Below, piece after piece: positions 13,910 to 32,838 of a stretch of DNA of 64,000 nucleotides (position 1 is the first letter of the stretch; each line of letters opens with the position of its first letter). The notes below the pieces were generated by a model that was not told the DNA's origin, did not search any database, and saw nothing but the letters and a program-made list of their open reading frames with translations. The position numbers were made by a program, and so were the translations under genes. The DNA is taken from assembly GCF_018613415.1 (NCBI RefSeq), contig NZ_JAGGQG010000002.1:62001-126000 (forward strand), in the 5' to 3' direction. The DNA is from Bacillus sp. ISL-18 (lineage in GTDB: Bacteria > Bacillota > Bacilli > Bacillales > Cytobacillaceae).

Positions 13910-14665
13910 ATGCAAATGAGTGATCAAAGAGTCGCAATCGTTACTGGAGCAAATAAAGGGCTCGGGTTAGCCATTGCTGAAAATTTTGTGAATGAAGGAA
14001 AAAAAGTCGTTTTCGTGATAAGAAACAAGGAGAATCTTGAACAAACAAAGCAGCGATTTCAACCGGAAGTCGTAGAGGAGCAAATGATGTTCATCCAATT
14101 GGATGTATCTAGTATTAACGGTATTAAAGAGGCAGTCAACCAAGTTTTAAACAAATGGGGGAGAATCGATATTCTCGTGAATAATGCAGGAATTCGATTT
14201 GAAACCCCGATAGAAGAGATCAATGAGGAAGAATGGGATCAAGTTTTATCTGTAAATTTAAAAAGCACATTCTTTTTTTCACAAGCTGTCATTCCTCCCA
14301 TGAAAGAACGAGGGTGGGGACGAATCATTAATATGTCCTCAATTGGAGGACAGGCTGGTCCATTATCTTCTGGCGCTCATTATTCTGCTTCTAAAGCCGG
14401 ACAAATTGCCTTGAGTAAATCCTTTGCTAGATCGTTAGCGGCTGATGGCATTACAGTTAATGCCGTTGCGCCAGCCTCTGTTCGTACACCAGAGATGGAT
14501 AAAATGGATCCGGATAAATTAGCCCAAATGATAGAGACGATTCCACTCAAACGTGTCGGAGAGCCACAAGAGGTTGCTGACTTAGTATCCTATTTAGCCT
14601 CTGATTCTGGTGGATTTACCACCGGTGCCACATTTGATTTAAATGGCGGCAGGTTTATGAGATAA
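13910..14665 (+). CDS. Short-chain dehydrogenase/reductase (FabG/IacE-like)
   Basis: A 251-residue classical SDR that oxidises or reduces an alcohol/ketone with NAD(P). The cofactor motif TGANKGLG is at 13-20, NNAG at 91-94, and the catalytic Ser143/144, Tyr158 and Lys162 (YSASK) are present. AGGAGAGG precedes the ATG. It is the first gene of a likely operon with the monooxygenase-like gene, flavin reductase and IacB-like gene. In iac (indole-3-acetate) and iif (indole) clusters an SDR works beside the flavin monooxygenase, a role suggested here by context only. Confidence 0.88.
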   Translation: MQMSDQRVAIVTGANKGLGLAIAENFVNEGKKVVFVIRNKENLEQTKQRFQPEVVEEQMMFIQLDVSSINGIKEAVNQVLNKWGRIDILVNNAGIRFETPIEEINEEEWDQVLSVNLKSTFFFSQAVIPPMKERGWGRIINMSSIGGQAGPLSSGAHYSASKAGQIALSKSFARSLAADGITVNAVAPASVRTPEMDKMDPDKLAQMIETIPLKRVGEPQEVADLVSYLASDSGGFTTGATFDLNGGRFMR

Positions 14666-14766
14666 CGCAGCCAAACGTTTCATCACTTAGATGAATCGCC
14701 TTTGTCCTATTATAGAGAACCACTAATCATTTAATGAAAATACAAAAGATGTAGGGAGGAAAAAAC

Positions 14767-15894
14767 ATGACTGTTGAAATGCAACGTAAAGACCTGCTCA
14801 ATCATGTGTTAACTGAAATCCGCACCCGCCGGGACGAATTCGAGGCGAAGCGACACGTGCCTCGGGACATGGTCGAACAACTAAAGCAACTGGGTGTCTA
14901 TCGTGCGCACACACCGCGTTGCTTTGGCGGCGATGCCCTCTCGCCTTCTGAGTTTCTCAAACTGATTGAGTCCATCTCCGAAGCTGACGGATCCGCCGGA
15001 TGGGTAGCAAGCTTTGGCTCTGCTTCACTCTATCTTGCAGCACTCCCTAAGGATACACTCGCACGTCTTTACGCAAATGGTCCGGATGTTGCCTTCGCGG
15101 GCGGCCTGTTTCCGGTCCAGCCTGCAGAAAAGGTTGAAGGTGGCTGGCTTGTTAACGGTCTCTGGAGGTTCGCAAGTGGCTGTAAGGGTGCAGACATTCT
15201 TGGTGTCGGTATTGGCGCCGGAGAAGGTGGCAAACCACTTACCGCTGTGCTTAGACCTGAGGACGTGGAAATCATTGAGAACTGGGAAGTGATCGGGATG
15301 CGCGGAACGGGCAGCCATGACTTGCAGGTGAAAGACGCCTTTGTCTCTGACGAATGGACCTTTGTCCGTGGCGGTGTGCCTTCTATTGAAGAACCGATCT
15401 ACCAATATCCATCTATCGCATATGCAGCACAGGTACTTGCAGTGGTCAATCTTGGCATAGCCCGTGCTGCGCTTGATGAAGTGACTCAGATGGCCGGTGG
15501 CCGTTCGAGCATTACTGGCGCACCGAAGATGGCTGATCGTGCTTACTTACGAATTTCTTTAGCAAAGGCAGAAGCATCATTAAGATCAGCCCGCGCTTTC
15601 TTCTATGAGACCACTGATTCCGTTTGGGCTTCGATCCTACGGGGTGACGGTGTTTCTCCTGAACAAACAAGTATGCTGCGCCTGGCGGCCACTCAAGTTG
15701 CCCGTGAAGGTGCAAGCGCTGTGCAGTCAGCCTACCTGCTTTCGGGCACCGCCGCGATCTACGATGGGCACCCAATTCAGCGTTATCTGCGCGACGCGAT
15801 GGTCGTGACACAGCACGCATTCCTCAATGAAAGCATGTACGAAGGAGCCGGATCGGTATTACTGGGTGTGCCGCCGATGCGTGGTTACATCTGA
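14767..15894 (+). CDS. Acyl-CoA-dehydrogenase-fold flavin monooxygenase (group D; IacA/HsaA-like)
   Basis: A 375-residue protein of the acyl-CoA dehydrogenase fold, lacking a recognisable acyl-CoA dehydrogenase catalytic-base context. Such proteins next to a flavin reductase are FADH2-dependent aromatic hydroxylases (HpaB-type C2, HsaA, indole oxygenases, IacA). Motifs: LKQLGVYRAHTPRCFGGD in the N-terminal domain, EADGSAGWVASFGSA, GLWRFASGCKGAD, and the C-terminal GAGSVLLGVPPMRGYI. A GGGAGG site precedes the ATG. Codon use is strikingly GC-rich (many CGC, GGC, GCC codons) compared with neighbours, which points to acquisition from a higher-GC bacterium. The likely reductant is supplied by the flavin reductase 410 bases downstream. 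Substrate not established. Confidence 0.8.
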   Translation: MTVEMQRKDLLNHVLTEIRTRRDEFEAKRHVPRDMVEQLKQLGVYRAHTPRCFGGDALSPSEFLKLIESISEADGSAGWVASFGSASLYLAALPKDTLARLYANGPDVAFAGGLFPVQPAEKVEGGWLVNGLWRFASGCKGADILGVGIGAGEGGKPLTAVLRPEDVEIIENWEVIGMRGTGSHDLQVKDAFVSDEWTFVRGGVPSIEEPIYQYPSIAYAAQVLAVVNLGIARAALDEVTQMAGGRSSITGAPKMADRAYLRISLAKAEASLRSARAFFYETTDSVWASILRGDGVSPEQTSMLRLAATQVAREGASAVQSAYLLSGTAAIYDGHPIQRYLRDAMVVTQHAFLNESMYEGAGSVLLGVPPMRGYI

Positions 15895-15981
15895 TCCTGC
15901 TAATCAATACCGGAGCCTAGATCTCCAATCTGCATAGAACAGCATGTTTTCAAAATATAGAAACGAGGTGTTTAAAGTAAA

Positions 15982-16269
15982 ATGGAGCGAAATTTAAGCG
16001 TTGTTAAGGAACCATTATATTTCAATCTTCCTGACAAAAATTTCTTTGATCTATGTAATGTCCGTTATGGGATCAACAGGGGTGTCTATAATGTGATCGA
16101 TCATTGGTTCTTTCTCAATGGATTTCAAGATATTAAATCAAGAAGGGGTACCATTCTTAAATTTTTAACTTTTTTGCATAAACATCAAATTAAAAAGTTT
16201 GGTAAAGGCGGAGTTAAAAAAAGTCTGGAATTATTTTTGGCAAATCGAAGGGCAAAAGAGGTAGGTTGA
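15982..16269 (+). CDS. Uncharacterised 95-residue protein in the monooxygenase operon
   Basis: A small basic protein I do not recognise. It has an aromatic-rich middle (VYNVIDHWFFLNGF) and a lysine-rich C-terminal half (HKHQIKKFGKGGVKKS), with no signal peptide or clear membrane helix. The ATG has GAGGTG 10 bases upstream, and the reading frame lies between the monooxygenase-like and flavin reductase genes on the same strand, so expression is plausible. It ends just before the 38-bp repeat copy 2. It could be a genuine small gene or a fragment left by the rearrangement marked by that repeat. Confidence 0.5.
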   Translation: MERNLSVVKEPLYFNLPDKNFFDLCNVRYGINRGVYNVIDHWFFLNGFQDIKSRRGTILKFLTFLHKHQIKKFGKGGVKKSLELFLANRRAKEVG

Positions 16270-16272
16270 CTC

Positions 16273-16310
16273 TTGGGAAAAATTATTCTATAGGAGGAAA
16301 GTACATGGAT
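16273..16310 (+). repeat. 38-bp direct repeat, copy 2 (flavin reductase start)
   Basis: Identical in length to copy 1 and 34/38 identical. It can be read as the last codons of a V4R-PucR regulator (LGKIIL stop) running into the ribosome site and ATG of the flavin reductase. It marks the right boundary of the SDR/monooxygenase segment. Confidence 0.85.
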
Positions 16311-16793
16311 CCGCGTCAATTTAGAAACACACTTGGACATTTTGCAACTGGGGTAACGGTTATTACAACTAAGAAAGAAGAAGAATTAATTGGTTTAACA
16401 GCTAATGCATTCTCATCGCTTTCATTAGACCCGCCGTTAATCCTAGTTTGTATTGATAAAAAGGCTGGTAGTTTATCGGCTTTTAAACAGGGGCATTCCT
16501 TTGTCGTTAACATTCTTCAGGAAGGACAGGAAGAAGAATGCTGGAGATTCGCAAAAAGATCAGAAGATAAGTTTGCGAATTCAAGTTATACCTTATCAAG
16601 TCATGGCATTCCTGTTTTAAATGATAATCTTGCTACGCTTGAATGCACCATAGCGGAACTCCTTGAAGGAGGGGACCACATTATTGTAACAGGGAAGGTT
16701 GAAGCCGTTTCTTATGATGAAGAAAAGAGTCCGCTGTTATTTTTCCGTGGAAAGATTGGCCAAATGAAAAAGGAAGAACAATTAATCAAATAG
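16305..16793 (+). CDS. Flavin reductase (HpaC/IacG-like)
   Basis: A 162-residue NAD(P)H:flavin oxidoreductase of the FMN-binding split-barrel family. Signature segments are FRNTLGHFATGVTVITTK, GLTANAFSSLSLDPPLILVC, and SFVVNILQEGQEE, with GDHIIVTGKVEAV near the C terminus. The ATG follows an ideal TAGGAGGAAAGTAC ribosome site. It should deliver reduced flavin to the acyl-CoA-dehydrogenase-fold oxygenase of the same operon, as HpaC, HsaB and IacG do in their systems. Its start region carries the 38-bp repeat also found at the end of the upstream regulator gene. Confidence 0.9.
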   Translation: MDPRQFRNTLGHFATGVTVITTKKEEELIGLTANAFSSLSLDPPLILVCIDKKAGSLSAFKQGHSFVVNILQEGQEEECWRFAKRSEDKFANSSYTLSSHGIPVLNDNLATLECTIAELLEGGDHIIVTGKVEAVSYDEEKSPLLFFRGKIGQMKKEEQLIK

Positions 16794-16807
16794 AAGGAGG
16801 AATATAA

Positions 16808-17170
16808 ATGGGAGAGATTAAGCACGGAGCACCACAAGTGCCAAGCCCGCTTCGAGTATTCATTACATTTGAATCCACAGGCTGGTTTGATACGACACAA
16901 CAACAAAAGGAAAAAGAACTTTTACCACTGTTGAAAACTGTTTTAGAAGAGTGGAGAAGCAATGGCTCGGAGTTGCTTGGAACCTTCGATCGTGATATTT
17001 TAACAGCGGGTCATTCGGGCCCGACATTTTGGCACGCATGCTTTTTATACAATGTACCTAATTTGCAAACGGTTGCAGATATGACGCATTCATTTCGAGC
17101 AACAGGCCTTGACCGCTATTTTCGACTAGAAGCATCCATTGGACGACCATTTTTCTTGCTGGAACAATAA
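16808..17170 (+). CDS. IacB-like small protein
   Basis: A 120-residue protein without a well-known catalytic motif. Its pattern (RVFITFESTGWFDT at the start, then LLGTFDRD, GPTFWHACFLYNVPNLQTV, and DRYFRLEASIGRPF) resembles, from memory, the small IacB proteins of indole-3-acetate degradation clusters. That resemblance needs a profile search. AAGGAGG lies just upstream of the ATG and the gene is 14 bases after the flavin reductase stop, so it is cotranscribed. It is the last gene before a terminator. Possible role: accessory or isomerising factor acting on the oxidised aromatic product. Confidence 0.55.
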   Translation: MGEIKHGAPQVPSPLRVFITFESTGWFDTTQQQKEKELLPLLKTVLEEWRSNGSELLGTFDRDILTAGHSGPTFWHACFLYNVPNLQTVADMTHSFRATGLDRYFRLEASIGRPFFLLEQ

Positions 17171-17185
17171 ATAAATATAGAAAAG

Positions 17186-17273: not shown

Positions 17274-19205
17274 TTAATCTAAATGAATCGATGTCAGTTT
17301 GCCAAAGGCTAGATAGATGTCTAAGGCCATTTGGACTTCACGGCGAGTAGTAGAATTCATCATATCTATGTTAAATCGCTCTTTTAAACTAGCAAGGCGA
17401 TAACGCATTCCGCCAATTGAATAATTCATGCAGCGTGCTGTTTTATGCAAATTACATTCATTATACATATAAAAATAAAGAGTTTTTAATAGTTCCGTTG
17501 ATTTCTCAATATCATAGGCATAGATTGGGCCTAGAATTTGATCGGCATAGTTCTCCAATTCCTTTGGATTTCGTGCATCTAATAAAATGGAAATATGTCC
17601 AATAGATGAAAATAAAATGACTTGTTGTTTCTGATTATTAAATTGAGTAATTTCCAACGCTTTTTTAGCTTGTTTATACCCTTCATGAATTTCAGTAATT
17701 TGGGTGCAAATATTACTTATTCCGATTAATAATTGGGAAGAAGGAAACTTTTTCTTAACTTCTTTCAATAGGATCTCTCCAAATTTTTTAGGACTCCAAT
17801 TATGTGTAGATAAAAAGTCTTCGGAGATTAGTGCCTGAATTTGTTCAAACGAATGGGAAACGAGCATATTTTCTTTTGCAATAGCGGCATATCTTCTTAG
17901 GGTATTAGTAATAAGATCCTTTTCTACATCTAAAGATTCAGTTTGTTGATAGTCTTGATTTTGCAAGCGAAAAATAAACAAATAATGTGGTTTGTTAAGA
18001 TTATATCCTAAAAAGGTTAATTTTTTCATAATGTTGGAATCTAATTTGTTCTGAAGAATGATTTCGTCTAGTAATTCCCCTTTCATTCGTTGTTCTGTAT
18101 CAATCGCTGTTTTTTCATTTAAGATATGGAGAGCGCAAATATTTGCTGCCCGTTCTATTAAAGAGGATTCAAGTTCTTCAATTTCCTTCGAATTTTTAAT
18201 TATTGATATATATCCATAAACATTGTTTTGGACAATAATTGGGGTAATTAACGGATAATGTAAAAGGCCATGTTCTTCTAAAAAATTTAGCTGAATGGTT
18301 ATTCGATTCGTAATCATTTTATTGATTTTTTTTCTGTCAGAGGCGTTAAATATATGCTGATTTTCAACAATGTCTTTTAGAGAATAGTCGACTGCTTGTC
18401 CATATTCTGTAATTGTTTCAAAATGCTTATTGGATATAACAATGCCGTAGCCAAGGCTTCGTCCAAGTGTTTGAGCAATCGAATCTAGTCCTTTTCCTTG
18501 TAAGACAATTTGAGTTAATTGGTTACTTATCAAATTCCCGCGTTTAAGAATTTCACTTTGCCTTTCAATTCGTTTATAAGCCCTGTCTAACTCATCTCCA
18601 ATATCTTCTCGTGCGTAATCAACCTCTTCTGGAGAAATTTCGTCTCCCCATAAATCCAGTGTTTTGCCTACGAAATGACAATGCGGATCACCCTTACCGA
18701 TACATTCAACTTCTTTAAAAACAACTTTTTTTCCTAAAGAAGTACTGCAATAACCGCTAGCATACCCTTCTAAAAAATAGCAAACTGGCTCAGAATGAAC
18801 AGGAAAATGTTGTAAGTATTGTTTGGCTTCATAAGAATTATGCCAGAAACCTTCTACGTCAAATTCTTTTGTTTCTGGATTAATATTGGCCTTTATGGGA
18901 ACGGATGTGGATCGGCCTGATAAACCATGCATGGTAACACCGCCCATGATCCATTCCTTCGTATTTTCCCAATTAAACATATTTTTTAACATCATGGCCT
19001 CATGTTTCCCACACTGATATCCATAACGTAATAAAAAATGTTTTGCTCGTTCAATTCCGAGTGCTAAAACTAAATCCTTGATTAAGGCTCCCCAAGCATC
19101 TGCACTAGAAATAAACATTCTTTGAGACTGTAGAAAGTTATTCTTCTTGGTATCAACGCCAAATAAATCGCTTAAGGTAATAGTGTTTGCTTTTATTGTA
19201 GACAT
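17274..19205 (-). CDS. Second XylR_N + V4R sensor / PucR-type HTH regulator
   Basis: A 643-residue paralogue of the regulator at 11.7-13.6 kb, with the same order: XylR_N about 25-118, V4R about 120-188, linker, and a C-terminal HTH (HKTARCMNYSIGGMRYRLAS). The sensor keeps the MopR-type zinc set (Cys142, Glu165, Cys168, Cys176) and the pocket residues His93 and Trp121. Differences around the pocket (GGVTMHGLSG versus GSKMHQITG) suggest a different ligand. ATAGGAGG precedes the start. It is transcribed away from the MHS carrier gene and probably governs that gene and the downstream aromatic operons. Confidence 0.88.
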   Translation of the reverse strand: MSTIKANTITLSDLFGVDTKKNNFLQSQRMFISSADAWGALIKDLVLALGIERAKHFLLRYGYQCGKHEAMMLKNMFNWENTKEWIMGGVTMHGLSGRSTSVPIKANINPETKEFDVEGFWHNSYEAKQYLQHFPVHSEPVCYFLEGYASGYCSTSLGKKVVFKEVECIGKGDPHCHFVGKTLDLWGDEISPEEVDYAREDIGDELDRAYKRIERQSEILKRGNLISNQLTQIVLQGKGLDSIAQTLGRSLGYGIVISNKHFETITEYGQAVDYSLKDIVENQHIFNASDRKKINKMITNRITIQLNFLEEHGLLHYPLITPIIVQNNVYGYISIIKNSKEIEELESSLIERAANICALHILNEKTAIDTEQRMKGELLDEIILQNKLDSNIMKKLTFLGYNLNKPHYLFIFRLQNQDYQQTESLDVEKDLITNTLRRYAAIAKENMLVSHSFEQIQALISEDFLSTHNWSPKKFGEILLKEVKKKFPSSQLLIGISNICTQITEIHEGYKQAKKALEITQFNNQKQQVILFSSIGHISILLDARNPKELENYADQILGPIYAYDIEKSTELLKTLYFYMYNECNLHKTARCMNYSIGGMRYRLASLKERFNIDMMNSTTRREVQMALDIYLAFGKLTSIHLD

Positions 19206-19472
19206 TGGAAACCTCCTATAAAAATAAGGTTATCATAAACTATCACTCATTATTATATTACACATTGGTACAGAATAATTTAAATTTTCCAACAGTATAT
19301 GCGGGATACAAATAGAGTGAAATCTTTGTATAATCAATTTTACAACATATCTATAGTGGAAAGGGGAGGAGTATTAAAATATAAAGTTAACCTTAATAGA
19401 AAGGCCCACATTAATAGTAAAAAGTGGGTACCCCTTGACTGCAAATGTAAGAATCTATCGGAGGTGTAAATT

Positions 19473-20795
19473 GTGTCTAGCAATAATTCAAATAGTATTT
19501 TAGATAAAAAAATGGCAAGAAGAGCACTAATTGGTTCTACTTCTGGTGCCATTATTGAATGGTATGATTTTTCGCTTTATGCCACTGCTTCTGCTTTAAT
19601 CTTTCCCAAACTGTTTTTTCCCAATACAGATCCATTTATCGCAACAATCCTGTCATTCGCAACTTTTGCAACCGGTTTCTTAGCAAGACCAATAGGAGCT
19701 ATTATTTTCGGACATTTTGGTGATCGAATCGGACGGAAGAACGCATTAATTGTTACTTTATGGATGATGGGGTTAAGCAGTGCCGCTATGGGATTAATTC
19801 CTAGCCATGCTTCTATTGGAATATGGGCTCCCATCCTGCTTGTTTTGTTGAGATTAATCCAAGGAGTTGGAGTTGGAGGAGAATGGGCAGGATCCATACT
19901 ATTATCAATGGAATGGGGAAAGAAAAAGCAGCAAGGATTTATGGCAAGTATCCCAAATGCCGGGGTAGGAGCGGGGATGTTACTATCTTCAGCGGTTGTA
20001 GGATTGTGTATCACTTTAGCAGGGGACAGTTTCTACGTGTGGGGATGGAGAATTCCCTTTTTAGGAAGTTTATTGCTATTAGTTGCAGGCCTTATTATTC
20101 GCTCAAAAATTATTGAAACACCGTCATTTCGTAAAGTTCAAGAGGGCAAAACAGTATCAAAATTACCGGTTATAGATGTTATGAAACAACATCCAAAGCA
20201 GATTCTCTATACAGGTTTTGCTAAATTAGTAGAGCATACACCGTTTGTTATCTACACTACCTTTTTGATTAATTTTGCTATCAATAATTACCATGTTAGT
20301 TCGTCCTTTATGGTTAATACCAATACTTTGGCAAGTTTCTTATTATGTATTTTGATCCCATTCTTTGGGTACCTTTCTGATAAAGTTGGAATTAAACGTC
20401 TATTTATGATTGGTATCGCTGCAACATTTGTTTGGGGATTTGTTTTTGTTGGTTTAGTTGATACAGGTGCGCCGGCTTTTATCGCAACGGCCATGCTCAT
20501 TTCAATGCTTCCGTTTTGTATGCTAACGGGTGCACTTCCAGCTTTAGCTTCACAGGCATTCCCTGCTCGTTTACGGTATAGTGGTGCTTCACTGGGGACA
20601 CAAATCCCAGCTATCTTTGCAGGCGGTATTGCCCCGATGGTCTGTACGTATTTGATACAGGCAACTGGAAAGATTTATTCAATTGGAATTTATATAGCTA
20701 TTGTGTCTATTCTGGGCTTTATAGGTACAAGTAAACTTAAGAATTTTTCAAGCGAACATGAAGGTGATGTAAGTGCTAACAATAGAAATGCTTGA
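19473..20795 (+). CDS. MHS-family MFS transporter
   Basis: A 440-residue, 12-helix transporter of the metabolite:H+ symporter family. The signature SGAIIEWYDFSLYATASALIFP opens helix 1, followed by RPIGAIIFGHFGDRIGRKNAL, VGVGGEWAGSILLSMEW and QAFPARLRYSGASLG. Relatives import shikimate, ketoglutarate, proline/betaine and aromatic acids. GTG start behind GGAGGTG. Its neighbour is the divergent V4R-PucR regulator, so an aromatic acid is a sensible cargo. It is clearly paralogous to the carrier at 31.5-32.8 kb, suggesting two related substrates in the same island. Confidence 0.88.
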   Translation: MSSNNSNSILDKKMARRALIGSTSGAIIEWYDFSLYATASALIFPKLFFPNTDPFIATILSFATFATGFLARPIGAIIFGHFGDRIGRKNALIVTLWMMGLSSAAMGLIPSHASIGIWAPILLVLLRLIQGVGVGGEWAGSILLSMEWGKKKQQGFMASIPNAGVGAGMLLSSAVVGLCITLAGDSFYVWGWRIPFLGSLLLLVAGLIIRSKIIETPSFRKVQEGKTVSKLPVIDVMKQHPKQILYTGFAKLVEHTPFVIYTTFLINFAINNYHVSSSFMVNTNTLASFLLCILIPFFGYLSDKVGIKRLFMIGIAATFVWGFVFVGLVDTGAPAFIATAMLISMLPFCMLTGALPALASQAFPARLRYSGASLGTQIPAIFAGGIAPMVCTYLIQATGKIYSIGIYIAIVSILGFIGTSKLKNFSSEHEGDVSANNRNA

Positions 20796-21240
20796 TATTA
20801 AATACCCCGGAAGGTGTAAAAGAATAATAGTTGTTCAGAAAATAAGGGGATTTTTCCATTAAAAAAGTTGGTTCACATTTCAGCAATTTAAAAAATATCC
20901 TTCATCAAGGCGATGAAGAATATTTTATTACAAACGAATGTTGAATTATAGGTCCTGTATGATTCGGTTGTAAAAATTATTTTTTTCCGCCTAAAAGTAA
21001 ATTGTTTTAATTTCCTTCTATTAATAATATGTAAATATAAGTTTTCTGAATAATTTTTCAAAATGCGTTAATGGATATCCTTATCCGTGTGTTGTTATGA
21101 ATGGATTTCAACAAAGTACGTTTTGGTTACCTAGTTTATTTAGATAAACTACTGAAAAGTAAAAATCTTATACGGTATTGTTTGTTAAACTTTATGTTGT
21201 GCTGTTCGTGGTATGTTGAAAATAAAGGGGTATAACAATC
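20796..21240. promoter_or_regulatory. Intergenic region: terminator plus shared catabolic promoter element, copy A
   Basis: 445 bases without a gene. At 20893-20926 a hairpin (CTTCATC/GATGAAG extended by AT pairs) ends the MHS carrier transcript. At 20955-21011 lies a 57-base element matching the Rieske-operon upstream region at 45 of 57 positions with no gaps. It includes the invariant block TCGGTTGTAAAAAT and ends in a TTGTTTT -35-like box. A TAATAT -10-like box follows 17 bases after TTGTTT. The rest is AT-rich with nothing recognised. Confidence 0.6.
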
Positions 21241-22617: not shown

Positions 22618-22648
22618 TAAAATCATATGAAATTTTGGAGGAAGAAAG

Positions 22649-24037: not shown

Positions 24038-24094
24038 CTGTACGAATCGGTTGTAAAAATGAAAATTTTAGACCTAAACTTAAATTGTTTTGAT
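24038..24094 (+). promoter_or_regulatory. Shared catabolic promoter element, copy B (Rieske operon)
   Basis: The counterpart of the element at 20955-21011: same length, 45/57 identical, with the block TCGGTTGTAAAAAT and the distal CCTAAA fully kept. TTGTTT at its right end is a plausible -35, with TATCAT about 18 bases further as the -10. The conserved block therefore sits just upstream of the -35, where an activator such as a V4R-PucR protein would bind. Confidence 0.6.
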
Positions 24095-24173
24095 ATGCCG
24101 GGATTTATTATCATGTAGATAGTGGAAATTGGAATTTTTGAAAAATTCACAGTATGGTTAGGGGGATTTTCAC

Positions 24174-25451: not shown

Positions 25452-25479
25452 TAAAACTTATAGCGAAAGAAGGGGTTGG

Positions 25480-25596
25480 ATGTCCTTAGATGAGTATTTG
25501 AAAATGATTCTAGAGGATGGGGAAATAGATATTGTCAACGTAGAACCTGCCTTTTCTTTTAATCTAGAAAGTTATGAGGTTTCAGACAATGACTGA
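25480..25596 (+). CDS. Small 38-residue ORF between Rieske oxygenase and amidase
   Basis: A short acidic frame starting MSLDEYLKMILEDGEID, with AAGGGG just upstream of its ATG. Its stop overlaps the amidase start by 8 bases, the geometry of translational coupling. No family is recognised. It could be a real small protein or only a leader that couples amidase translation to the upstream gene. Confidence 0.4.
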   Translation: MSLDEYLKMILEDGEIDIVNVEPAFSFNLESYEVSDND

Positions 25597-26998
25597 TATT
25601 CTCTTTGAGCCGATTGAAACGGTAGTGACTCATATTAAAAATAAACAGTTATCACCAGTCGAATTAACGCAATTAACCATCAACCAAATTCACGAACATG
25701 AACCTAGGTTAAATGCCTTCATTACTGTTATGGAGGAAGAGGCAATGGTTCAGGCGAAACAGCTTGAAAGAGAGATGGAGAATAATCAAATTAGGGGTCC
25801 ATTGCATGGGATTCCTATTGCTGTAAAAGATATTTTGCAAACAATGGGTGTTCAAACGACCAACGGCTCTAAAATTTTTGAAGGATGGATCCCTGACGAA
25901 GATGCTGCAGCGGTTCAAAAATTAAGAGAAGCTGGTGCTATTATCATTGGGAAGGCAAACTTGCATGAATTCGCAATGGGGGCAACTACAGAAAATCCGC
26001 ATTATGGAAGTACCAAAAATCCTTGGGATGGCACTAGAATTCCCGGAGGTTCAAGTGGCGGATCTGCAGTAGCAACTGCAACGGGTATGGCCTTTGGAGC
26101 GGTGGGTACTGATACAGCTGGTTCCATTCGCCTCCCAGCAGCAATGTGCGGAACTGTCGGATTAAAACCAACCTATGGTTTGGTTAGCAGGGCTGGCTGT
26201 CTACCTTTCAGTTGGTCATTGGACCATGTTGGCCCGATGACAAGGACGGTAAAGGATGCTGCAATTATACTTGAAGTTATGAAAGGGCACGATCCTAGAG
26301 ACCGTTCAACGGTAAAAAGAAATGATTCAATATTATTTAAACCATTAACCGATTTAAAAGGCGTAAAGTTTGGTTTTTACGAGCCATATATGTTCTCAGG
26401 GATAGATGATGGAGTTAAGAATGTCATTGAACAAGCCTTTCGTCAATTAGAATTGCTTGGAGCAGAAATTGTGCCAATTGATCTGCCTGGAATCGAACAA
26501 GCTTTAGATGCTCTTAAGGCTATTGCACAAGCAGAGGTTGTCTCTGTTCATAAGCCAATGTTAAAGAAATTTAGTCATCTATATGGAGATGATTTAAAGT
26601 ATCGCTTTGAATATGGAAGTGAAGTTTCAGCCGCCACTTATATTCATGCTCAAAGAAGTAGAGATCAGTTCGTTAGAGGAACTCTCAAACAATTGAGTTG
26701 TCTTGATGCTTTAATTGGACCGACGAATGTTAAAATACCATTTGAAATCGGTACAATGGTTCCAGAAATGGCCATTAGCAACATGTTTACACTGGGGAAA
26801 ACTCCACTTGCAAATATTTTAGGCTTCCCCGCTTTATCGGTTCCATGTGGATTCACAACAGAAAACCTTCCTGTTGGACTGCAATTCATTGGAAAGCCTT
26901 TCACAGAGCAAAGGCTGTTGCAAGTCGGTGATTGCTATGAGCAGTCAGAGCATTGGTTCAAGGCATTAAAAAACAAATTTACAAGGGAAGCTGTTTAG
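25589..26998 (+). CDS. Amidase (amidase signature family)
   Basis: A 469-residue amidohydrolase with the full Ser-cisSer-Lys triad: Lys80 (AVKDIL), Ser155 in GGSSGGSA and nucleophile Ser179 in TDTAGSIRLPA. Chain length and motifs are near GatA and the IacH-type amidases of indole-acetate clusters; without GatB/GatC neighbours it is not the tRNA amidotransferase. I used the ATG at 25589, coupled to the small upstream ORF, rather than the one 15 bases earlier, which lacks a ribosome site. It probably hydrolyses an amide produced in, or feeding, the aromatic pathway. Confidence 0.88.
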   Translation: MTDILFEPIETVVTHIKNKQLSPVELTQLTINQIHEHEPRLNAFITVMEEEAMVQAKQLEREMENNQIRGPLHGIPIAVKDILQTMGVQTTNGSKIFEGWIPDEDAAAVQKLREAGAIIIGKANLHEFAMGATTENPHYGSTKNPWDGTRIPGGSSGGSAVATATGMAFGAVGTDTAGSIRLPAAMCGTVGLKPTYGLVSRAGCLPFSWSLDHVGPMTRTVKDAAIILEVMKGHDPRDRSTVKRNDSILFKPLTDLKGVKFGFYEPYMFSGIDDGVKNVIEQAFRQLELLGAEIVPIDLPGIEQALDALKAIAQAEVVSVHKPMLKKFSHLYGDDLKYRFEYGSEVSAATYIHAQRSRDQFVRGTLKQLSCLDALIGPTNVKIPFEIGTMVPEMAISNMFTLGKTPLANILGFPALSVPCGFTTENLPVGLQFIGKPFTEQRLLQVGDCYEQSEHWFKALKNKFTREAV

Positions 26999-27070
26999 CT
27001 TCCTTCGTGCCCTTAAGAATCAGCGATAGTACTAATTTGAAATGTAGATAAGTGGTTAGGAGAACAAACT

Positions 27071-27517
27071 ATGATTAGTAAAATGGAGCATGTAGCTATA
27101 ATCGTTAAGGACTTGGAGCAGTCCATTCGATTTTATTCGGAAATATTTGGGTTTAGGGTTCGCCTTCGCGGAAGTAAGCCGGATAGAGAAATGGCTTTTT
27201 TATTTCTTGAATCACAGTCAGACATAGAGATCGAATTAATACAAGAGATGAACGTAACGATTGAAACTAGCGAAAATGGAATCGTAAATCATCTTGCATT
27301 CACGGTAGAAGATATTGAAACGACAATAAACTATTTAAAAGAAAAAAATATAAAATTTACTTCTGATGAAGTTAAATCCACTCTTGAAGGGGGGCGAATG
27401 ATCTTATTTTGGGGGCCAAACCGAGAATTACTACAACTTGTTGAACGTTTACAGCCCATTTTTGAAAGTGATTTTGATTTAAAAGAATACAAGCTAGATG
27501 TTAATCTCTTTAAATAA
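27071..27517 (+). CDS. VOC (glyoxalase/extradiol) superfamily protein
   Basis: A 148-residue single VOC unit. The beta-alpha-beta pattern starts KMEHVAIIVKDLEQSIRFYSEIFGF, with a possible metal His in MEHVAI, a second His in NHLAFTVEDIE and a Glu in RELLQLVE, the usual metal triad. TTAGGAGAA lies before the ATG. It directly precedes the catechol 2,3-dioxygenase gene. Enzymes of this fold include glyoxalases, epimerases and small extradiol dioxygenases; the sequence alone does not choose. It may act on a pathway intermediate. Confidence 0.8.
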   Translation: MISKMEHVAIIVKDLEQSIRFYSEIFGFRVRLRGSKPDREMAFLFLESQSDIEIELIQEMNVTIETSENGIVNHLAFTVEDIETTINYLKEKNIKFTSDEVKSTLEGGRMILFWGPNRELLQLVERLQPIFESDFDLKEYKLDVNLFK

Positions 27518-27539
27518 CTTTTGAGCAGGAGGAAATAGA

Positions 27540-28454
27540 ATGGGGAGAGTATTACGTATTGGTCGAGTAGAATTAAAAGTCTTGGACTTAGAAAAATCAG
27601 TAGACTACTATACAAATATTATTGGTTTAGAAGAAACAGGTCGTATGGGTGACAGTGTCTATTTAAAAGCATGGGATGAGTTTGATCATCATAGCGTTAT
27701 TTTGACAAAATCAAATTCGCCTGGATTAGCACATATGGCCTTTAAAGTTGAGACAATGGATGATCTAGCTTATTACGAGAAGAAAGTCGAAGAGTTTGGA
27801 TGTACAACGACAAGAATTTCAAATAATACAAGACTAGCTGAAGGGGAAGCTGTTCATTTTATTTTACCAACAGGCCATCATTGTGAACTTTATCATGAAA
27901 TTGGTTTCCTTGGTACCGCAGTTGGATTTAGAAATCCTCATCCATGGCCATTAGGCTGGAAAGGAATTGCACCACACCGATTAGATCATATTCTATTAAC
28001 GGGAAATGATTTGAAAACGGTTACTAGATTCTTTGTGGAAGCGCTTAACTTTAGGCAAAGTGAAAAAGTTGTAACGGAAGGTGAAGAAGAATTACTCGGA
28101 AGCTTCTTATTTACAACAAATAAAGCTCATGATATTGCCTTTGTTAAGGGGCCTGATGCTAAACTCCATCATGCAGCATTCCATGTTGATTCTGTTCATG
28201 ATGTCTTTAAAGCTGCTGATCTTTTGTCTATGTATAATGTTCCATTTGATGTCACCCCTACCCGCCATGGTATTTCAAGAGGGGAAACGATTTATTTCTT
28301 TGATCCGTCTGGAAATCGTAACGAAGCCTTTGCCAACGGATATATGAGCTATGCAGATATGCCAACAATTACTTGGGACGCTGCTAAAATTGGAACTGGT
28401 ATTTTCTATCATGCAAGAGAATTATCAGAATCATTTATGAAGGCGTTGACTTGA
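27540..28454 (+). CDS. Catechol 2,3-dioxygenase (XylE/DmpB type)
   Basis: A 304-residue two-domain extradiol dioxygenase that opens catechol to 2-hydroxymuconic semialdehyde. The C-terminal half follows XylE closely: iron ligands His150 (RLDHILL), His211 (KLHHAAFH) and Glu262 (RNEAFANGY), with acid-base His197, His243 (TRHG) and Tyr252 (TIYFFDPSGN). AGGAGG precedes the ATG. The XylT-type ferredoxin gene follows, as in TOL-like operons. It identifies catechol or a substituted catechol as a central intermediate of this island. The later meta-pathway enzymes (semialdehyde dehydrogenase or hydrolase) are not in view. Confidence 0.93.
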   Translation: MGRVLRIGRVELKVLDLEKSVDYYTNIIGLEETGRMGDSVYLKAWDEFDHHSVILTKSNSPGLAHMAFKVETMDDLAYYEKKVEEFGCTTTRISNNTRLAEGEAVHFILPTGHHCELYHEIGFLGTAVGFRNPHPWPLGWKGIAPHRLDHILLTGNDLKTVTRFFVEALNFRQSEKVVTEGEEELLGSFLFTTNKAHDIAFVKGPDAKLHHAAFHVDSVHDVFKAADLLSMYNVPFDVTPTRHGISRGETIYFFDPSGNRNEAFANGYMSYADMPTITWDAAKIGTGIFYHARELSESFMKALT

Positions 28455-28502
28455 TAAATATTATGAATTATTGGAAATAGCAAAAACATAGGGGGTAATC
28501 GA

Positions 28503-28829
28503 ATGTATAAAGTAACTTTAAATGCTAGGGGGCAACAATTTGAATATAACACTTTGCCTGACCAATCGCCTCTTCAAGCAGCTCGAAATGAATTTATACC
28601 TTTTCCAACTGGATGCAGGCGAGGGGGATGTGGCCTATGCAAGGTTAAGGTATTAAGTGGTGAATACAAACAAGAATTGATTCGATCGCATGAGGCGCTT
28701 CCCGATGAAGATTTAGAAAATGCCTTTGCCTTAGCATGTTGTATGACTCTTAAGAGTGATGTTGAGCTCGTTACAATGGAGGACTATCAAAAATCTATGC
28801 AGCCAGCTGCTTTGATAGAGACTAAATAA
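28503..28829 (+). CDS. Plant-type [2Fe-2S] ferredoxin (XylT-like)
   Basis: A 108-residue ferredoxin with cluster ligands Cys38-x4-Cys43-x2-Cys46 and a distal Cys79 in FALACCMTLK. The spacing is that of plant-type ferredoxins. In TOL and dmp operons such a protein (XylT, DmpQ) sits next to catechol 2,3-dioxygenase and re-reduces its oxidised iron; the same neighbour here supports that role. It could also pass electrons to the Rieske oxygenase of the operon. GGGGGTAA precedes the ATG. No cognate reductase gene is visible. Confidence 0.9.
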   Translation: MYKVTLNARGQQFEYNTLPDQSPLQAARNEFIPFPTGCRRGGCGLCKVKVLSGEYKQELIRSHEALPDEDLENAFALACCMTLKSDVELVTMEDYQKSMQPAALIETK

Positions 28830-28831
28830 CA

Positions 28832-29266
28832 ATGTTATATCAAAAATATGCATTAACCCAGTCACTAGCTTTAAGAATTATCGATGCCGTTACGAGCGAA
28901 GCGGAAAAATTACAAATTACAATCAATGTGGCAGTAGTAGATGAAGGGTCAAATTTAAAGGCATTCATTCGGATGGATGAAGCTCCCTTGCTTAGTGGAA
29001 CAATTGCACAAAACAAAGCTTATACATCTGCAGCCTTTGGTAAACCTACCCATGAATGGTATTCGATGATTAAAGACGACCCGGCCTTATTAACCGGAAT
29101 TGTCCATACAGATAGACTAGTCGTATTTGGGGGAGGAATTCCACTAATTTTTAAAGGGATAATTGTTGGAGGAATCGGGGTTTCAGGCGGTACAGCTGAT
29201 CAAGATCTCCAATGTGCGCTATCTGGTTTAAAAGTATTTGAAGAAGATTGTCAAAAAGAAGAATAG
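28832..29266 (+). CDS. GlcG/HbpS family haem-binding-like protein
   Basis: A 144-residue protein of the GlcG/HbpS (DUF336) family: ALRIIDAVTSEAEKLQ at the start, VAVVDEGSNLKAFIRMD, NKAYTSAAFGKPT, and the glycine-rich PLIFKGIIVGGIGVSGGT. It starts two bases after the ferredoxin stop, so translation is probably coupled. Members occur beside oxidative catabolic operons and in haem or redox sensing; some bind haem or glycolate-related ligands. Precise role unknown. Confidence 0.85.
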   Translation: MLYQKYALTQSLALRIIDAVTSEAEKLQITINVAVVDEGSNLKAFIRMDEAPLLSGTIAQNKAYTSAAFGKPTHEWYSMIKDDPALLTGIVHTDRLVVFGGGIPLIFKGIIVGGIGVSGGTADQDLQCALSGLKVFEEDCQKEE

Positions 29267-29364
29267 TCTGTTTAGATGCCAATTTAGTAGGAGTATTTCT
29301 ACCGGTAAAAAAGTCAACATGATCTACACATTAATAAATCATATTGAGAATGGGGATGAAGTAA

Positions 29365-30465
29365 TTGGAAATTTCTGTACTTGGCGGTGGAAACGGCTCC
29401 TATGCAGCCGCGGTAGATTTAACTGAACAGGGTCATAATGTAAGGCTGTGGAGAAGGGATGCAGAAGCATTTCAGGAAGTACTAGCAAAACAGCAGATCC
29501 TGTTAAAAGATCACAACGGCTCAAAAATGGTTACCCTGAAACTAGCAAGCACTGATTTAAAGGAAGTAATCCAAGGAGCAAAGCTAATCGTGATCCCGCT
29601 TCCAGCTTTCGCCCAGCAGGCATTAGCGAAGCAGCTGGCACCCGTACTTGAAGATGGACAGGTTCTTTTCTTGCCGCCAGGAACCTTTGGCAGTTTCCTG
29701 ATGGCCAAAGTTTTGGAAGAAGAAGGTTGTAAAGCAAGGGTAAGTTTCGCTGAGACTGGCACCCTTCCATATCTTGCTAGGAAATACGATGAACAATCGG
29801 TTTCGATTTCAGGGCGGGCGACTCGTCTTCCAACAGGTGTTTTTCCTAGTAATCAATCAGATGAAGCATTTGAAATCTTGAAAACAGCGTTTCCAGCCAT
29901 CGAGCCGATTCAAGATGCACTTGATGGTGCCTTGATGAATGCCGGATCGATCATCCACCCGCCGCTCATTTTAATGAATGCCGGTCCGATCGAACATTTT
30001 GATCGGTGGGACATTCATAATGAAGGAACCCAACCTTCGATACGAAATGTTCATCGGGCTTTGGATGAAGAAAGAGTGAGAGTACGTGAAGCTTTGGGCT
30101 ATTTAGCGCCACATTTTCCACTTGACGATCATTATAATCCAGAGGGAGAAGAATGGATGTATGGGAATGGGGCCCATGAGAAACTCGTGGATGGAAAGGA
30201 CTGGTTTGAGCCACTGAATTTATACAACCATCGTTATATGAGGGAGGATATTGCCTGCGGATTAGCATTTCTCGTTTCGCTAGGAGAATGGCTGGGTGTT
30301 CCTGTCCCAACGGCAGCTGGGCTGCTACAAATCGCATCTGCAGTGATTGGTGAAGATTTGAGAAGCACAGGAAGAACATTGGAAAATCTTAATCTGGCAT
30401 CCAAAACAAAAGAGGAATTGAAAGAAATTTTGAACAAGGGGCTACACCATTATGAACTTAGCTAA
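29365..30465 (+). CDS. NAD/NADP octopine/opine dehydrogenase family protein
   Basis: A 366-residue protein with an N-terminal Rossmann domain (VLGGGNGSYAAAVDL) and a C-terminal opine-dehydrogenase domain. The catalytic-His segment NAGSIIHPPLILMNAG matches the position used in octopine and norvaline-opine dehydrogenases. Family enzymes reversibly join an amino acid to a 2-oxo acid by reductive amination. TTG start, because the only nearby ATG runs into a stop. Its 3' end overlaps the next gene by 14 bases. In a catabolic operon it more probably oxidises an opine-like secondary amine than makes one. Confidence 0.85.
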   Translation: MEISVLGGGNGSYAAAVDLTEQGHNVRLWRRDAEAFQEVLAKQQILLKDHNGSKMVTLKLASTDLKEVIQGAKLIVIPLPAFAQQALAKQLAPVLEDGQVLFLPPGTFGSFLMAKVLEEEGCKARVSFAETGTLPYLARKYDEQSVSISGRATRLPTGVFPSNQSDEAFEILKTAFPAIEPIQDALDGALMNAGSIIHPPLILMNAGPIEHFDRWDIHNEGTQPSIRNVHRALDEERVRVREALGYLAPHFPLDDHYNPEGEEWMYGNGAHEKLVDGKDWFEPLNLYNHRYMREDIACGLAFLVSLGEWLGVPVPTAAGLLQIASAVIGEDLRSTGRTLENLNLASKTKEELKEILNKGLHHYELS

Positions 30466-31447
30466 AGAGCCCATTTTTATTGCGGGCGCCGGGCGAATGG
30501 GCCGAGGTATTGCGGTTGCATTTGCCTATCAAGGGCATGAAGTTAGGCTGATCGATATTAAAAAAAGAAATCAGGAAGAATTTGAAGAATTAACGTCAGC
30601 TGTCAAGGCTGAAATAAACAGCCATTTGAAATTTCTAGCCGTTTCCGATGTAGTACCGAAGGAGATGGTTCTGCCTATTACCGAACGGATCAAAGTGTAT
30701 CGTATGGAGGATCAGTCGAATATATGGAATCAAGCAAACATCATCTTTGAGGCTGTCCCGGAAGTGGCAGAAATAAAGAAAGAAGTGTTCAGTCGGATTT
30801 GCGCAGGGGTTTCAAAGGATGCTCTGATTGCATCGACAACTTCCTCTTTTTTAGTAAATGAATTAGCTGAATTCGTAACCCATAAAGGGCGATTTATAAA
30901 TACACATTGGTTGAATCCTGCCTATTTGATGCCATTGGTAGAAGTAAGTCCCGGGAGTGAAACGAGGGAAGACAAGACAAATCAGATGATCCAATTGTTA
31001 GAAAGCATTGGAAAGGTGCCAGTGAAATGTGCGCCATCTCCAGGATTTATTGTGCCAAGAATACAGGCGCTTGCCATGAATGAGGCAGCTCGGCTCATGG
31101 AGGAGGGAGTTGCCTCTGTTGAAGATATTGATAAAGCGTCCAGGATTGGCTTTGGGCTTCGGTTTGCCGTGTTAGGACTTTTAGAATTTATTGATTGGGG
31201 AGGTGCTGACACGCTTTTCCATGCCAGCCATTATTTAAAGCAATCCTTAAATTCCGATCGTTTTTCGCCACCTCCAATTGTCGAAGAAATGATGGAAAGT
31301 GGGAATATTGGTTTAAAAACAAAATCAGGTTTTTATGATTTTGATAGTACCAAGATTGATGAATATCAATTGGAAACCCTGAAGAAGTTTATTGACTTAT
31401 TACAACATCTTGGGCTTCTTTCTACTCCTAAAGAACATGTATTATGA
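30452..31447 (+). CDS. 3-hydroxyacyl-CoA dehydrogenase family protein
   Basis: A 331-residue NAD-dependent dehydrogenase. The N-terminal Rossmann domain has GAGRMGRGIAVAF and EAVPEVAEIKKEVF, the catalytic His-Asn pair lies in NTHWLNPAYLMPLVEV, and the C-terminal 3HCDH domain ends in GLKTKSGFYDF. Its size is that of the stand-alone FadB2/PaaH/lambda-crystallin type rather than a fused FadB. It overlaps the opine dehydrogenase gene, implying coupled translation. The substrate may be a hydroxyacyl-CoA or a free hydroxy acid from ring degradation. Confidence 0.88.
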   Translation: MNLAKEPIFIAGAGRMGRGIAVAFAYQGHEVRLIDIKKRNQEEFEELTSAVKAEINSHLKFLAVSDVVPKEMVLPITERIKVYRMEDQSNIWNQANIIFEAVPEVAEIKKEVFSRICAGVSKDALIASTTSSFLVNELAEFVTHKGRFINTHWLNPAYLMPLVEVSPGSETREDKTNQMIQLLESIGKVPVKCAPSPGFIVPRIQALAMNEAARLMEEGVASVEDIDKASRIGFGLRFAVLGLLEFIDWGGADTLFHASHYLKQSLNSDRFSPPPIVEEMMESGNIGLKTKSGFYDFDSTKIDEYQLETLKKFIDLLQHLGLLSTPKEHVL

Positions 31448-31518
31448 TCTTTTTAGTTTTTTGAAAAATTCAAATAATGCATAAAAGTCTATAACAAAAC
31501 AATCTTAGGAGGAAACAA

Positions 31519-32838
31519 ATGGAAAATAAATCTAATCAAAAAATGGGAAAAAAAGCAGCGGTTGCTGCCACGATCGGCTCGGTTATTGAATGGTATGATT
31601 TTTTTCTTTATGCAACAGCTTCTGCATTAATCTTTCCAAAAGTATTCTTTCCTTCGGCTGATCCATATTTAGCCATGCTGCAATCTTTTGGCGCATTTGC
31701 CATCGGTTTTATTGCCCGTCCGATTGGAGCTGCCATTTTTGGTCATTTCGGAGACCGTATTGGCCGTAAAACAGCCCTTGTGTTAACCATGTTTTTAATG
31801 GGGTTAAGCAGTTTAGCGATTGGACTGCTTCCGTCTTATGACAAAATTGGATTTTGGGCACCAACTTTGATTGTGATATTGCGTTTAATTCAAGGGATTG
31901 GCGTAGGCGGCGAGTGGGGCGGAGCTGTCCTCCTTTCAATGGAATGGGGACAAAAGAAAAGACAGGCTCTTATGGCAAGCTGGCCGCAAATGGGAGTTTC
32001 CGCAGGACTTTTAGTATCGTCCATTATGGTTTCAGTGTTTATGACTATATCCGGTAATGGATTCTATACGTGGGGATGGCGCATCCCATTTCTGTTTAGT
32101 TTTGTCCTTCTCATTTTCGGTTTGATTATCCGGGCAAAGATACCTGAGACACCATCATTTCAAAATGTTCAAGAGGAGAACCAAGTTTCTCGGTTTCCTG
32201 TATTAGAGGTAATCAAGAAGCATCCTAAAGAGATTCTTTTAGCTGCTTTAGTAAGACTATCTGAAAACGGTCCATTTTATGTATATACTGTGTTGATGAT
32301 AAATTATGCGATGGATAATTTTTCGATAAATAAGCAGTTTATAGTCAATGCGAATACTGCTGGTGGCGTGGTAATGGCATTTTGTATTCCGCTCTTTGGT
32401 TATTTGGCAGATCGATTTGGTATTAGAAAAATGTATTTGATTGGGGTTGGAGCTACTCTTTTATGGGCTTTTCCATACATTGGACTTATTAATACGGGAA
32501 TTCCAATGGTTGTTTTCTTGGCAACGGCATTGGCAATGATTCCCCACAGTATGCAAGTTGGTCCCCAAGGTGCCTTTGTCGCCCAAAGTTTCCCAGCGAG
32601 GCTAAGGTATAGCGGCCTATCCTTAGGGTCCCAGTTTGGATCGATTATTGCCGGAGGAATCGCACCGTTAATTTGTACGTTTCTGTTGCATAAATTTGGC
32701 ACTTCATATGTGATTAGCTTCTATATTATATTCGCCGCGATCATTACCTTTAGTGCTTCTCTTTTAGTCAAAGCATGCCCAGAGGAGGAAGAGGACAATG
32801 CTGATACTGAATTAAGTGCGGTTTCCTCGACGATCTAA
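31519..32838 (+). CDS. MHS-family MFS transporter (second copy)
   Basis: A 439-residue, 12-helix metabolite:H+ symporter. It shares the same blocks as the carrier at 19.5-20.8 kb: SVIEWYDFFLYATASALIFP, RPIGAAIFGHFGDRIGRKTAL, GGEWGGAVLLSMEWGQKK and SFPARLRYSGLSLG. AGGAGG precedes the ATG. It closes the long Rieske/catechol operon before a terminator, so it is likely an importer of the pathway substrate or of a related aromatic acid. Confidence 0.9.
   Translation: MENKSNQKMGKKAAVAATIGSVIEWYDFFLYATASALIFPKVFFPSADPYLAMLQSFGAFAIGFIARPIGAAIFGHFGDRIGRKTALVLTMFLMGLSSLAIGLLPSYDKIGFWAPTLIVILRLIQGIGVGGEWGGAVLLSMEWGQKKRQALMASWPQMGVSAGLLVSSIMVSVFMTISGNGFYTWGWRIPFLFSFVLLIFGLIIRAKIPETPSFQNVQEENQVSRFPVLEVIKKHPKEILLAALVRLSENGPFYVYTVLMINYAMDNFSINKQFIVNANTAGGVVMAFCIPLFGYLADRFGIRKMYLIGVGATLLWAFPYIGLINTGIPMVVFLATALAMIPHSMQVGPQGAFVAQSFPARLRYSGLSLGSQFGSIIAGGIAPLICTFLLHKFGTSYVISFYIIFAAIITFSASLLVKACPEEEEDNADTELSAVSSTI

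Follow-up and report, generated by a model that had tools for sequence, protein, structure and literature searches.

Can an aerobic member of the Bacillales degrade indole-3-acetate (IAA) with a gene set that only partly resembles the iac clusters of other bacteria? The question is raised by an island at positions 13910-32838 of a 64,000-nucleotide stretch of Bacillus sp. ISL-18, the whole of which we call the window (G000:C22:62001-126000 of a 6.24 Mb assembly; the host is a relative of Neobacillus). A first-pass annotation, made from the letters alone, had described a possible IAA/indole-type catabolic island with catechol meta-cleavage, and the genes that it named all exist as open reading frames (ORFs) with the expected Pfam and NCBIfam families. 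We propose, with a probability of about 0.6, that this island encodes the aerobic breakdown of IAA, or of a closely related 3-substituted indole acid, to catechol by a cluster of Bacillota type. It would combine an iacABEG-type front end, in part a replacement, with a back end that is specific to the Bacillota and uses meta-cleavage.

A front end shared with iac clusters

The left half of the island runs on the forward strand from a short-chain dehydrogenase/reductase (SDR; 13910-14665) through a flavin-dependent monooxygenase of the acyl-CoA dehydrogenase fold (14767-15894), a conserved 95-residue protein (15982-16269) and a flavin reductase (16305-16793) to a 120-residue protein (16808-17170). 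The iac clusters used as references were drawn from plasmid and megaplasmid records: those of Acinetobacter baumannii (L037) and Streptomyces (L034) have the iac gene order in their annotation, with gene assignments that are our own, and that of K. pneumoniae (L052) carries a protein annotated as IacB. The Cupriavidus P-10 record (L038) is unannotated; its ORFs match IacA, B, H, C and E and, by Pfam, also include a SnoaL-type protein and an IacF-type reductase.

The window monooxygenase shares 77% identity with the Cupriavidus enzyme, 62% with that of Streptomyces and 47% with that of A. baumannii. In a 23-row tree, eight Bacillota monooxygenases form the sister group of the Cupriavidus enzyme (support 97/95), and the IacA group excludes HsaA, another hydroxylase and Rv3094c; the closest relative from beyond the Bacillota therein sits in an iac cluster. 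By phylogeny, then, the monooxygenase is an IacA orthologue, and by ranking across the genome the SDR and the flavin reductase are orthologues of IacE and IacG. The A. baumannii IacE retrieves the window SDR (41% identity) as the best of 47 genome matches, at 187.5 bits vs 137.1 for the next, and IacG from the same cluster retrieves the flavin reductase (Flavin_Reduct 143.8 bits) as the best of six, at 123.6 vs 84.5 bits. For the reductase we assumed the ATG at 16305 as the likelier start, the ORF itself opening with a TTG at 16266.

The 120-residue protein matches nothing in Pfam or NCBIfam, and its pairwise similarity to IacB is weak (29-35% identity, E 3e-7 to 1e-4). A hidden Markov model (HMM) built from seven IacB proteins nonetheless picks it out of 1810 ORFs with E 5.2e-9, every match being IacB-like, and profile comparison with hhalign gives 98.5% (E 3.1e-15), by which measure it is a divergent IacB homologue. 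Its predicted structure has a ferredoxin-like alpha/beta fold (pLDDT 80.8, pTM 0.73). Searches against solved structures by sequence, with the single sequence and with profiles, returned no credible match, and the fold has many middling structural matches (chlorite dismutase, coproheme decarboxylase, ribosomal S6, muconolactone isomerase), none with a Foldseek E below 0.001. We therefore assign it no function; the model is compatible with a small cofactor-free enzyme or an accessory protein, without being evidence for one.

These four proteins, which the first-pass annotation had named as counterparts of IacA, IacB, IacE and IacG, are the very Iac enzymes that the available part of PMC9613470 ties to the first two steps of IAA breakdown, as far as dioxindole-3-acetate. 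In the available part of PMC7225977, IAA is among several 3-substituted indoles that IacA oxidises, and IacE carries the product on to dioxindole-3-acetate; IacB was unneeded in that work, which disputes its requirement in the early steps. Neither of two outcomes that the first-pass annotation had named as refuting it, a monooxygenase grouping with HsaA-type enzymes and a 120-residue protein unrelated to IacB, was obtained.

The pairing of IacB and IacA is also seen across genomes. Among 200 relatives, the IacB protein (E <= 1e-3) and the monooxygenase (E <= 1e-40) occur in exactly the same eight genomes, which is more than chance would give, with the caveat that genomes of common descent do not count as independent; hypergeometric figures, which take no account of kinship, exaggerate the effect. 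The Rieske oxygenase of the right half (E <= 1e-100) occurs in nine of the 200, including seven of these eight. In a sample of 398 genomes from across the phylum, a relative of the IacB protein turned up in just one, that of the window itself, vs eight of the 200 near relatives.

A conserved neighbourhood in the Bacillota

The right half of the island, likewise on the forward strand, comprises an M19-family protein (22649-23884), an alpha-only Rieske oxygenase (24174-25451), an amidase-signature hydrolase (25574-26998), a VOC-fold protein (27071-27517; Glyoxalase_4 64.8 bits), a catechol 2,3-dioxygenase (27540-28454), a plant-type [2Fe-2S] ferredoxin (28503-28829; Fer2 61.3 bits), an HbpS/GlcG-like protein (28832-29266; HbpS-like 127 bits), an octopine/nopaline-dehydrogenase-like NAD(P) enzyme (29365-30465; Octopine_DH 104.8 bits), a 3-hydroxyacyl-CoA-dehydrogenase (HCDH)-like enzyme (30452-31447; 3HCDH_N 146.9 bits, and PRK08269 454.5 bits, above its cut-off of 427) and a metabolite/H+ symporter of the major facilitator superfamily (MFS; 31519-32838).

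One scan for relatives of the IacB protein gave 25 Bacillota loci, 22 of which share at least one further core gene with the window (the exceptions are L025, L032 and L033). Homologues of the M19 protein occur in 20 of the 25, of the Rieske oxygenase in 18 (two being fragments at contig ends), of the amidase in 18 and, clearly, of the SDR in 18. The octopine-dehydrogenase-like enzyme is present in 12, once at only 28% identity, and the HCDH-like enzyme in ten, these two counts including a few fragments or weak matches. All such counts are minima, because several loci are cut by contig ends. A catechol 2,3-dioxygenase lies near in five loci, and a ferredoxin in the same five.

Most telling is a GC-rich Bacillota metagenome-assembled genome (L031), in which SDR, amidase, an IclR regulator, M19, a luciferase-like monooxygenase (LLM), Rieske, IacB, ferredoxin, catechol 2,3-dioxygenase, octopine-dehydrogenase-like and HCDH-like genes follow one another on one strand. 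Since genes of both halves are consecutive there, the catechol enzyme belongs to the pathway in that genome, and this order is the strongest argument we have for assigning the two halves of the window to a single pathway ending in catechol cleavage.

The two loci of Brevibacillus panacihumi (L032 and L033, around 10001) have the IacB homologue in another neighbourhood. In L032 it adjoins an SSF symporter, a protein with a cucumopine-synthase C domain and a NAD-binding dehydrogenase, a setting that is perhaps opine-like.

A probable displacement of the first oxygenase

An LLM of about 360 residues is encoded in nine of the 25 loci, eight of which have no IacA-type gene in the locus. The IacA type is found in seven, and L026 alone carries both. 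The LLM of L031 scores 192 bits with Pfam Bac_luciferase, and the nearest NCBIfam models score below their cut-offs. Searching the 24 genomes behind all loci but L025 (a 3.1-kb contig), we found the IacA type (at least 80% identity) in 15 and the LLM type (at least 67%) in nine; a weak extra IacA-type match in G210 (28%) was not counted. Setting aside the two Brevibacillus genomes (G222 and G223), where IacB has its other neighbourhood and the LLM homologue reaches 46%, none of the remaining 22 is without both types, and two (those of L014 and L026) have both. The 46% match in the Brevibacillus genomes contains one TAA. Elsewhere in the window's own genome, the best LLM homologue reaches only 28%.

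Base composition sets the two oxygenases apart. The GC content of iacA is 0.543 in the window, vs 0.382 for the window itself, and 0.62 vs 0.40 in L010; across all seven loci it lies between 0.46 and 0.62 vs locus means of 0.38-0.43, an excess of 0.08-0.22. The nine LLM genes, by comparison, are within 0.03 of their locus means. Moreover, directly upstream of the iacA start in L010 lies the decayed start of an LLM gene, some sixty codons long (positions 2375-2558 of that locus; E 2e-8, with eight short stretches searched). Among the stretches near iacA in the window, L009, L010, L012, L013, L021, L022 and L026, such a relic was found in L010 only, the LLM gene of L026 being intact and the other matches weak. 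In a tree of IacB, Rieske and SDR, the deep branches are LLM-bearing, with one exception of the IacA type (L028), and the IacA type appears in more than one place; this tree is midpoint-rooted, with some open forks and six rows less than half filled.

Given an iacA so much richer in GC than its neighbours, and the decayed LLM start upstream of it in L010, the native LLM oxygenase seems to have been displaced by a horizontally acquired IacA, and to have been mostly retained in the deep-branching relatives. The iacA of the window was probably acquired in this way. It seems to have come alone, because the IacB, the SDR and the nearest flavin reductase of Cupriavidus are only 28-39% identical to their window counterparts. 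If true, this exchange of an LLM for a flavin enzyme of unrelated origin, a remnant of the old gene still being in place, would exemplify non-orthologous gene displacement inside a single pathway with unusual clarity.

Back-end enzymes and a proposed route

The back end departs from the iac pattern, and here the first-pass reading held only in part. It had noted that the Rieske enzyme is alpha-only and that the regulators are not those of Pseudomonas iac operons, and both points are borne out: the oxygenase matches Pfam Rieske and LigXa_C, and its best solved relative is a putative phthalate 4,5-dioxygenase (262 bits). As a candidate for IacC it was rejected, matching IacC at 20-23% identity in the N-terminal part only. 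A canonical iacC elsewhere in the genome was likewise rejected, the best matches of IacC, all away from the cluster, reaching only 31-35%. Nor did Pfam find, among the 20 window ORFs scanned (shorter overlapping ORFs lay outside the scan), a Rieske beta subunit (IacD), a PDR/VanB reductase (IacF), a SnoaL-type protein (IacI) or a MarR-family regulator (IacR), the first three as that annotation had stated; the remaining genome was not searched for IacF or IacI.

The amidase (Amidase 412.7 bits) is real, and its equation with IacH is less secure, a point to which we return below. IacH is itself variable among iac clusters, with 28.6% identity between two of them in the available part of PMC11373566. 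The M19 protein scores 227.9 bits with Peptidase_M19. Considering that it matches the family only in its C-terminal part, and that the H.D pattern was searched for in it and not found, it is perhaps not a typical hydrolase of the M19 family; we regard it as a candidate lactam or amide hydrolase whose N-terminal part has diverged. A catechol 2,3-dioxygenase, as had been claimed, is indeed present (TIGR03211 409 bits, cut-off 320.2). The ferredoxin, which from its position we take to be XylT-like (a literature search on XylT gave nothing), probably keeps the iron of this dioxygenase reduced. A motif scan was positive for the Rieske ligands and D..H....H, for GGSSGG and AVKD in the amidase, for TGxxxGxG, NNAG and YxxxK in the SDR, and for the four ferredoxin cysteines.

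From these parts we infer the following route. The MFS symporter would import the acid; the flavin reductase would supply reduced flavin to the IacA-type monooxygenase, which would oxidise the indole ring to 2-oxo-indole-3-acetate, and the IacE-type SDR would yield dioxindole-3-acetate, as has been printed for their homologues. IacB would assist at some step of the route. The lactam could then be opened by the amidase, the M19-family protein or both, after which the Rieske oxygenase would dihydroxylate the ring at the carbon that bears the amino group and at the one next to it. Loss of ammonia and of the side chain would leave catechol, a retro-aldol step yielding oxaloacetate along with it. 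The model for this dihydroxylation is anthranilate dioxygenase, whose attack falls on the same pair of carbons. Meta-cleavage would begin with catechol 2,3-dioxygenase, which the neighbouring ferredoxin would keep active, and a second locus would finish it. We infer both the substrate and the part of the route that leads from dioxindole-3-acetate to catechol. In the iac pathway the steps of that part are attributed to iacCDF and possibly iacI, with intermediates given as unknown, in the available part of PMC9613470, and they, like the role of IacB, are described as unresolved in that of PMC7225977.

The second locus (G000:C40; L049) encodes, above cut-offs, another catechol 2,3-dioxygenase, an acetaldehyde dehydrogenase and a 4-hydroxy-2-oxovalerate aldolase, and, below cut-offs, hydratase-, decarboxylase- and semialdehyde-dehydrogenase-like proteins. 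As it encodes these lower-pathway genes, meta-cleavage could apparently be completed within the same genome.

Alternative readings

Several points weigh against a pathway for IAA. The iacC, D, F, I and MarR genes are not in the cluster, the Rieske oxygenase is of the phthalate/LigXa type, and a reductase partner for it was not seen nearby. One genome (G049) has IacB and IacA with no Rieske match at E <= 1e-100. No catechol 2,3-dioxygenase lies nearby in 20 of the 25 related loci, though several are cut by contig ends. The best genome match of a Klebsiella IacH lies elsewhere, the window amidase ranking fourth, and the M19 protein matches its family only at residues 145-407, without the H.D motif. 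The octopine-dehydrogenase-like, HCDH-like, VOC, HbpS-like and 95-residue proteins have no proven role. The C40 locus may serve 4-hydroxyphenylacetate instead, because an HpaB-like gene is present there and the dehydrogenase scores best with HpaE. Finally, IacA-like proteins 55-57% identical to that of the window also occur outside iac clusters (L050 and L053), and IacA alone therefore leaves the substrate unfixed.

The alternative that fares best, unlikely as we consider it, keeps the enzymes and the chemistry and changes the indolic substrate: skatole, indole-3-lactate, indole-3-propionate, an oxindole or a conjugate with an amino acid, whose side chain would be trimmed by the dehydrogenases and the hydrolases of amide type. 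Indeed, IacA and IacE of C. glathei accept many 3-substituted indoles in the available part of PMC7225977, and two NAD-dependent dehydrogenases and an M19-family protein exceed the canonical iac set. On the other hand, the iac-cluster setting of the closest non-Bacillota IacA speaks for IAA, and the transporters suit an acid. The MFS symporter (2A0106-like; TIGR00883 403 bits, below the cut-off of 443), whose presumed role is uptake of the acid substrate, is 35.6% identical to a split MFS gene that follows the flavin reductase in an iac-type cluster of Klebsiella aerogenes, a cluster with no IacB match. In 16 of the 25 loci there is a gene of a family with one member a TRAP DctP protein, usually followed by two ORFs of DctQ and DctM size (known here by size only).

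Rather less probable still is that a non-indolic aromatic acid, amide or phenol is degraded, with the Rieske enzyme, the amidase and the XylR_N regulators devoted to it and the homologues of IacA, B, E and G acting on a different ring. The LigXa/phthalate kinship of the Rieske enzyme would fit this, as would the native LLM oxygenases of the relatives, for which a literature search gave no paper linking such an enzyme to IAA degradation or to any indole role. So would the regulators, with their XylR_N and MobR-like N-terminal parts. Two of these, of the XylR_N/V4R/PucR-HTH type by Pfam, stand in the window: regulator 1 (11708-13600, forward; XylR_N 68.5 bits, with V4R, GGDEF_2 and HTH_30) is presumed to be an aromatic-sensing activator of the SDR-iacA operon, and regulator 2 (17274-19205) is reversed between the two halves. 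Regulators of the XylR_N/V4R/PucR family occur in 13 of the 25 related loci. Against a different ring stand the four Iac orthologues together, and the confinement of IacB and IacA to the same eight of 200 relatives.

Could the window instead hold two adjacent but unrelated pathways, one encoded by an iacABEG-like operon (13910-17170) and the other by a Rieske/catechol operon (22649-32838)? Such a division would suit the presence of two regulators, of which one runs the opposite way between the halves, and of an MFS/permease insertion; the single apparent operon of L031, and the many other loci in which M19, Rieske, SDR, IacB and amidase genes are close neighbours, make it very improbable. A steroid (HsaAB) or 4-hydroxyphenylacetate (C1/C2) monooxygenase system is scarcely credible. 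In its favour, no NCBIfam family scores higher on the monooxygenase and the reductase than HsaA and p-hydroxyphenylacetate hydroxylase do, yet HsaA (155.9 bits vs a cut-off of 450) and the C2 hydroxylase (122.2 vs 650) were both rejected as identities of the monooxygenase, and HsaA lies outside the IacA group in the tree.

Relation to known systems

An indole-acid pathway of this kind would share much with the iac clusters of Pseudomonas, Acinetobacter, Klebsiella, Caballeronia, Cupriavidus and Streptomyces, which take IAA through dioxindole-acetate to catechol: orthologues of IacA, IacB, IacE and IacG, an amidase, and a catechol dioxygenase within the cluster. The differences lie in the back end, where the window has, in place of iacC, D, F, I and MarR, an alpha-only phthalate-type Rieske enzyme together with M19, octopine-dehydrogenase-like, HCDH-like, VOC and XylR_N/PucR proteins. 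They also lie in ring cleavage, for which Streptomyces (L034) has a catechol 1,2-dioxygenase (ortho) and the window a 2,3-dioxygenase (meta), and in the LLM oxygenase that some Bacillota relatives use in place of IacA. Not every plasmid reference pairs IacA with IacB: three of the 12 (L036, L050 and L053) have other or unclear settings and no IacB match, as does a decayed iac cluster (L055) with regard to IacB. Two of these, from Caballeronia (L050 and L053), have an IacA-like monooxygenase and a flavin reductase in non-iac settings.

The iad clusters of Variovorax and Bradyrhizobium, which convert IAA to anthranilate, likewise degrade IAA aerobically, with iacCD homologues of the Rieske type, according to the available part of PMC9613470. 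The window differs in that no IadDE (iacCD-type) Rieske pair was found among the 20 ORFs scanned and in having a catechol dioxygenase. The iif indole operon of Acinetobacter shares the logic of flavin monooxygenase, reductase and SDR; as IifC is a group E and IacA a group D monooxygenase (PMC7225977, available part), a comparison of the window enzyme with IifC is moot.

By the definition in the available part of PMC9613470 the cluster is not an iac locus, as it has no adjacent iacC and iacD homologues, but it probably works like one. The published auxin-degradation survey starts, in that same part, from adjacent iacC/iacD homologues and type-specific marker genes, and LLM-type Bacillota clusters would probably be missed by it because they are without both iacCD and iacA. 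Our literature searches, of open-licence papers, returned no paper that we recognised as describing this Bacillota cluster. We suggest tentatively, at not quite even odds, that aerobic Bacillales own a third architecture for the degradation of auxin or indole acids, in which a native LLM first enzyme is sometimes displaced by an IacA of unrelated fold and an alpha-only Rieske oxygenase and other hydrolases replace IacCDFI. Such a cluster would offer alternative enzymes by which the missing part of the route, between dioxindole-3-acetate and catechol, could be covered. Moreover, if a pathway exchanges both its first oxygenase and its Rieske step yet retains IacB (and, for the most part, the SDR), fewer roles are left for IacB.

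Further features of the locus

Neobacillus drentensis JC05 has a homologue of the 120-residue protein at 98% identity, and the N. drentensis locus L009 is, apart from the stretches named next, 93-97% identical to the window. The stretch at about 19301-22624 (an MFS gene, MFS1, and a 458-residue permease) is nearly all absent from L009, and is therefore probably not core to the cluster. The permease has no Pfam match; relatives lie near the cluster in L014 and L022, with fragments in L017. Also absent from L009 is a block at 6431-11565, which is probably an inserted module and to which, by reading of the sequence, belong a 715-residue regulator on the reverse strand, an MFS transporter and an M20 AbgB-like amidohydrolase; the last (10070-11497) was set aside as part of this block.

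Promoter-like sites showed no excess (59 found vs 60.5 expected from shuffles), and a hairpin at 23961-23989 may end a transcript ahead of the Rieske gene. A further MobR-like regulator (L049 3755-5635) stands ahead of the HpaB-like gene and the catechol 2,3-dioxygenase meta pathway in the C40 locus of the same genome. Two genes are split in relatives, by frameshift or assembly error: regulator 1 falls into two ORFs in N. drentensis L009 (4904 and 5969), and the M19 gene into two in Siminovitchia thermophila L018 (8671 and 9321). The 95-residue protein of the left half matches nothing in Pfam or NCBIfam, and its homologues adjoin a regulator gene in six loci (L010, L016, L017, L018, L020 and L027).

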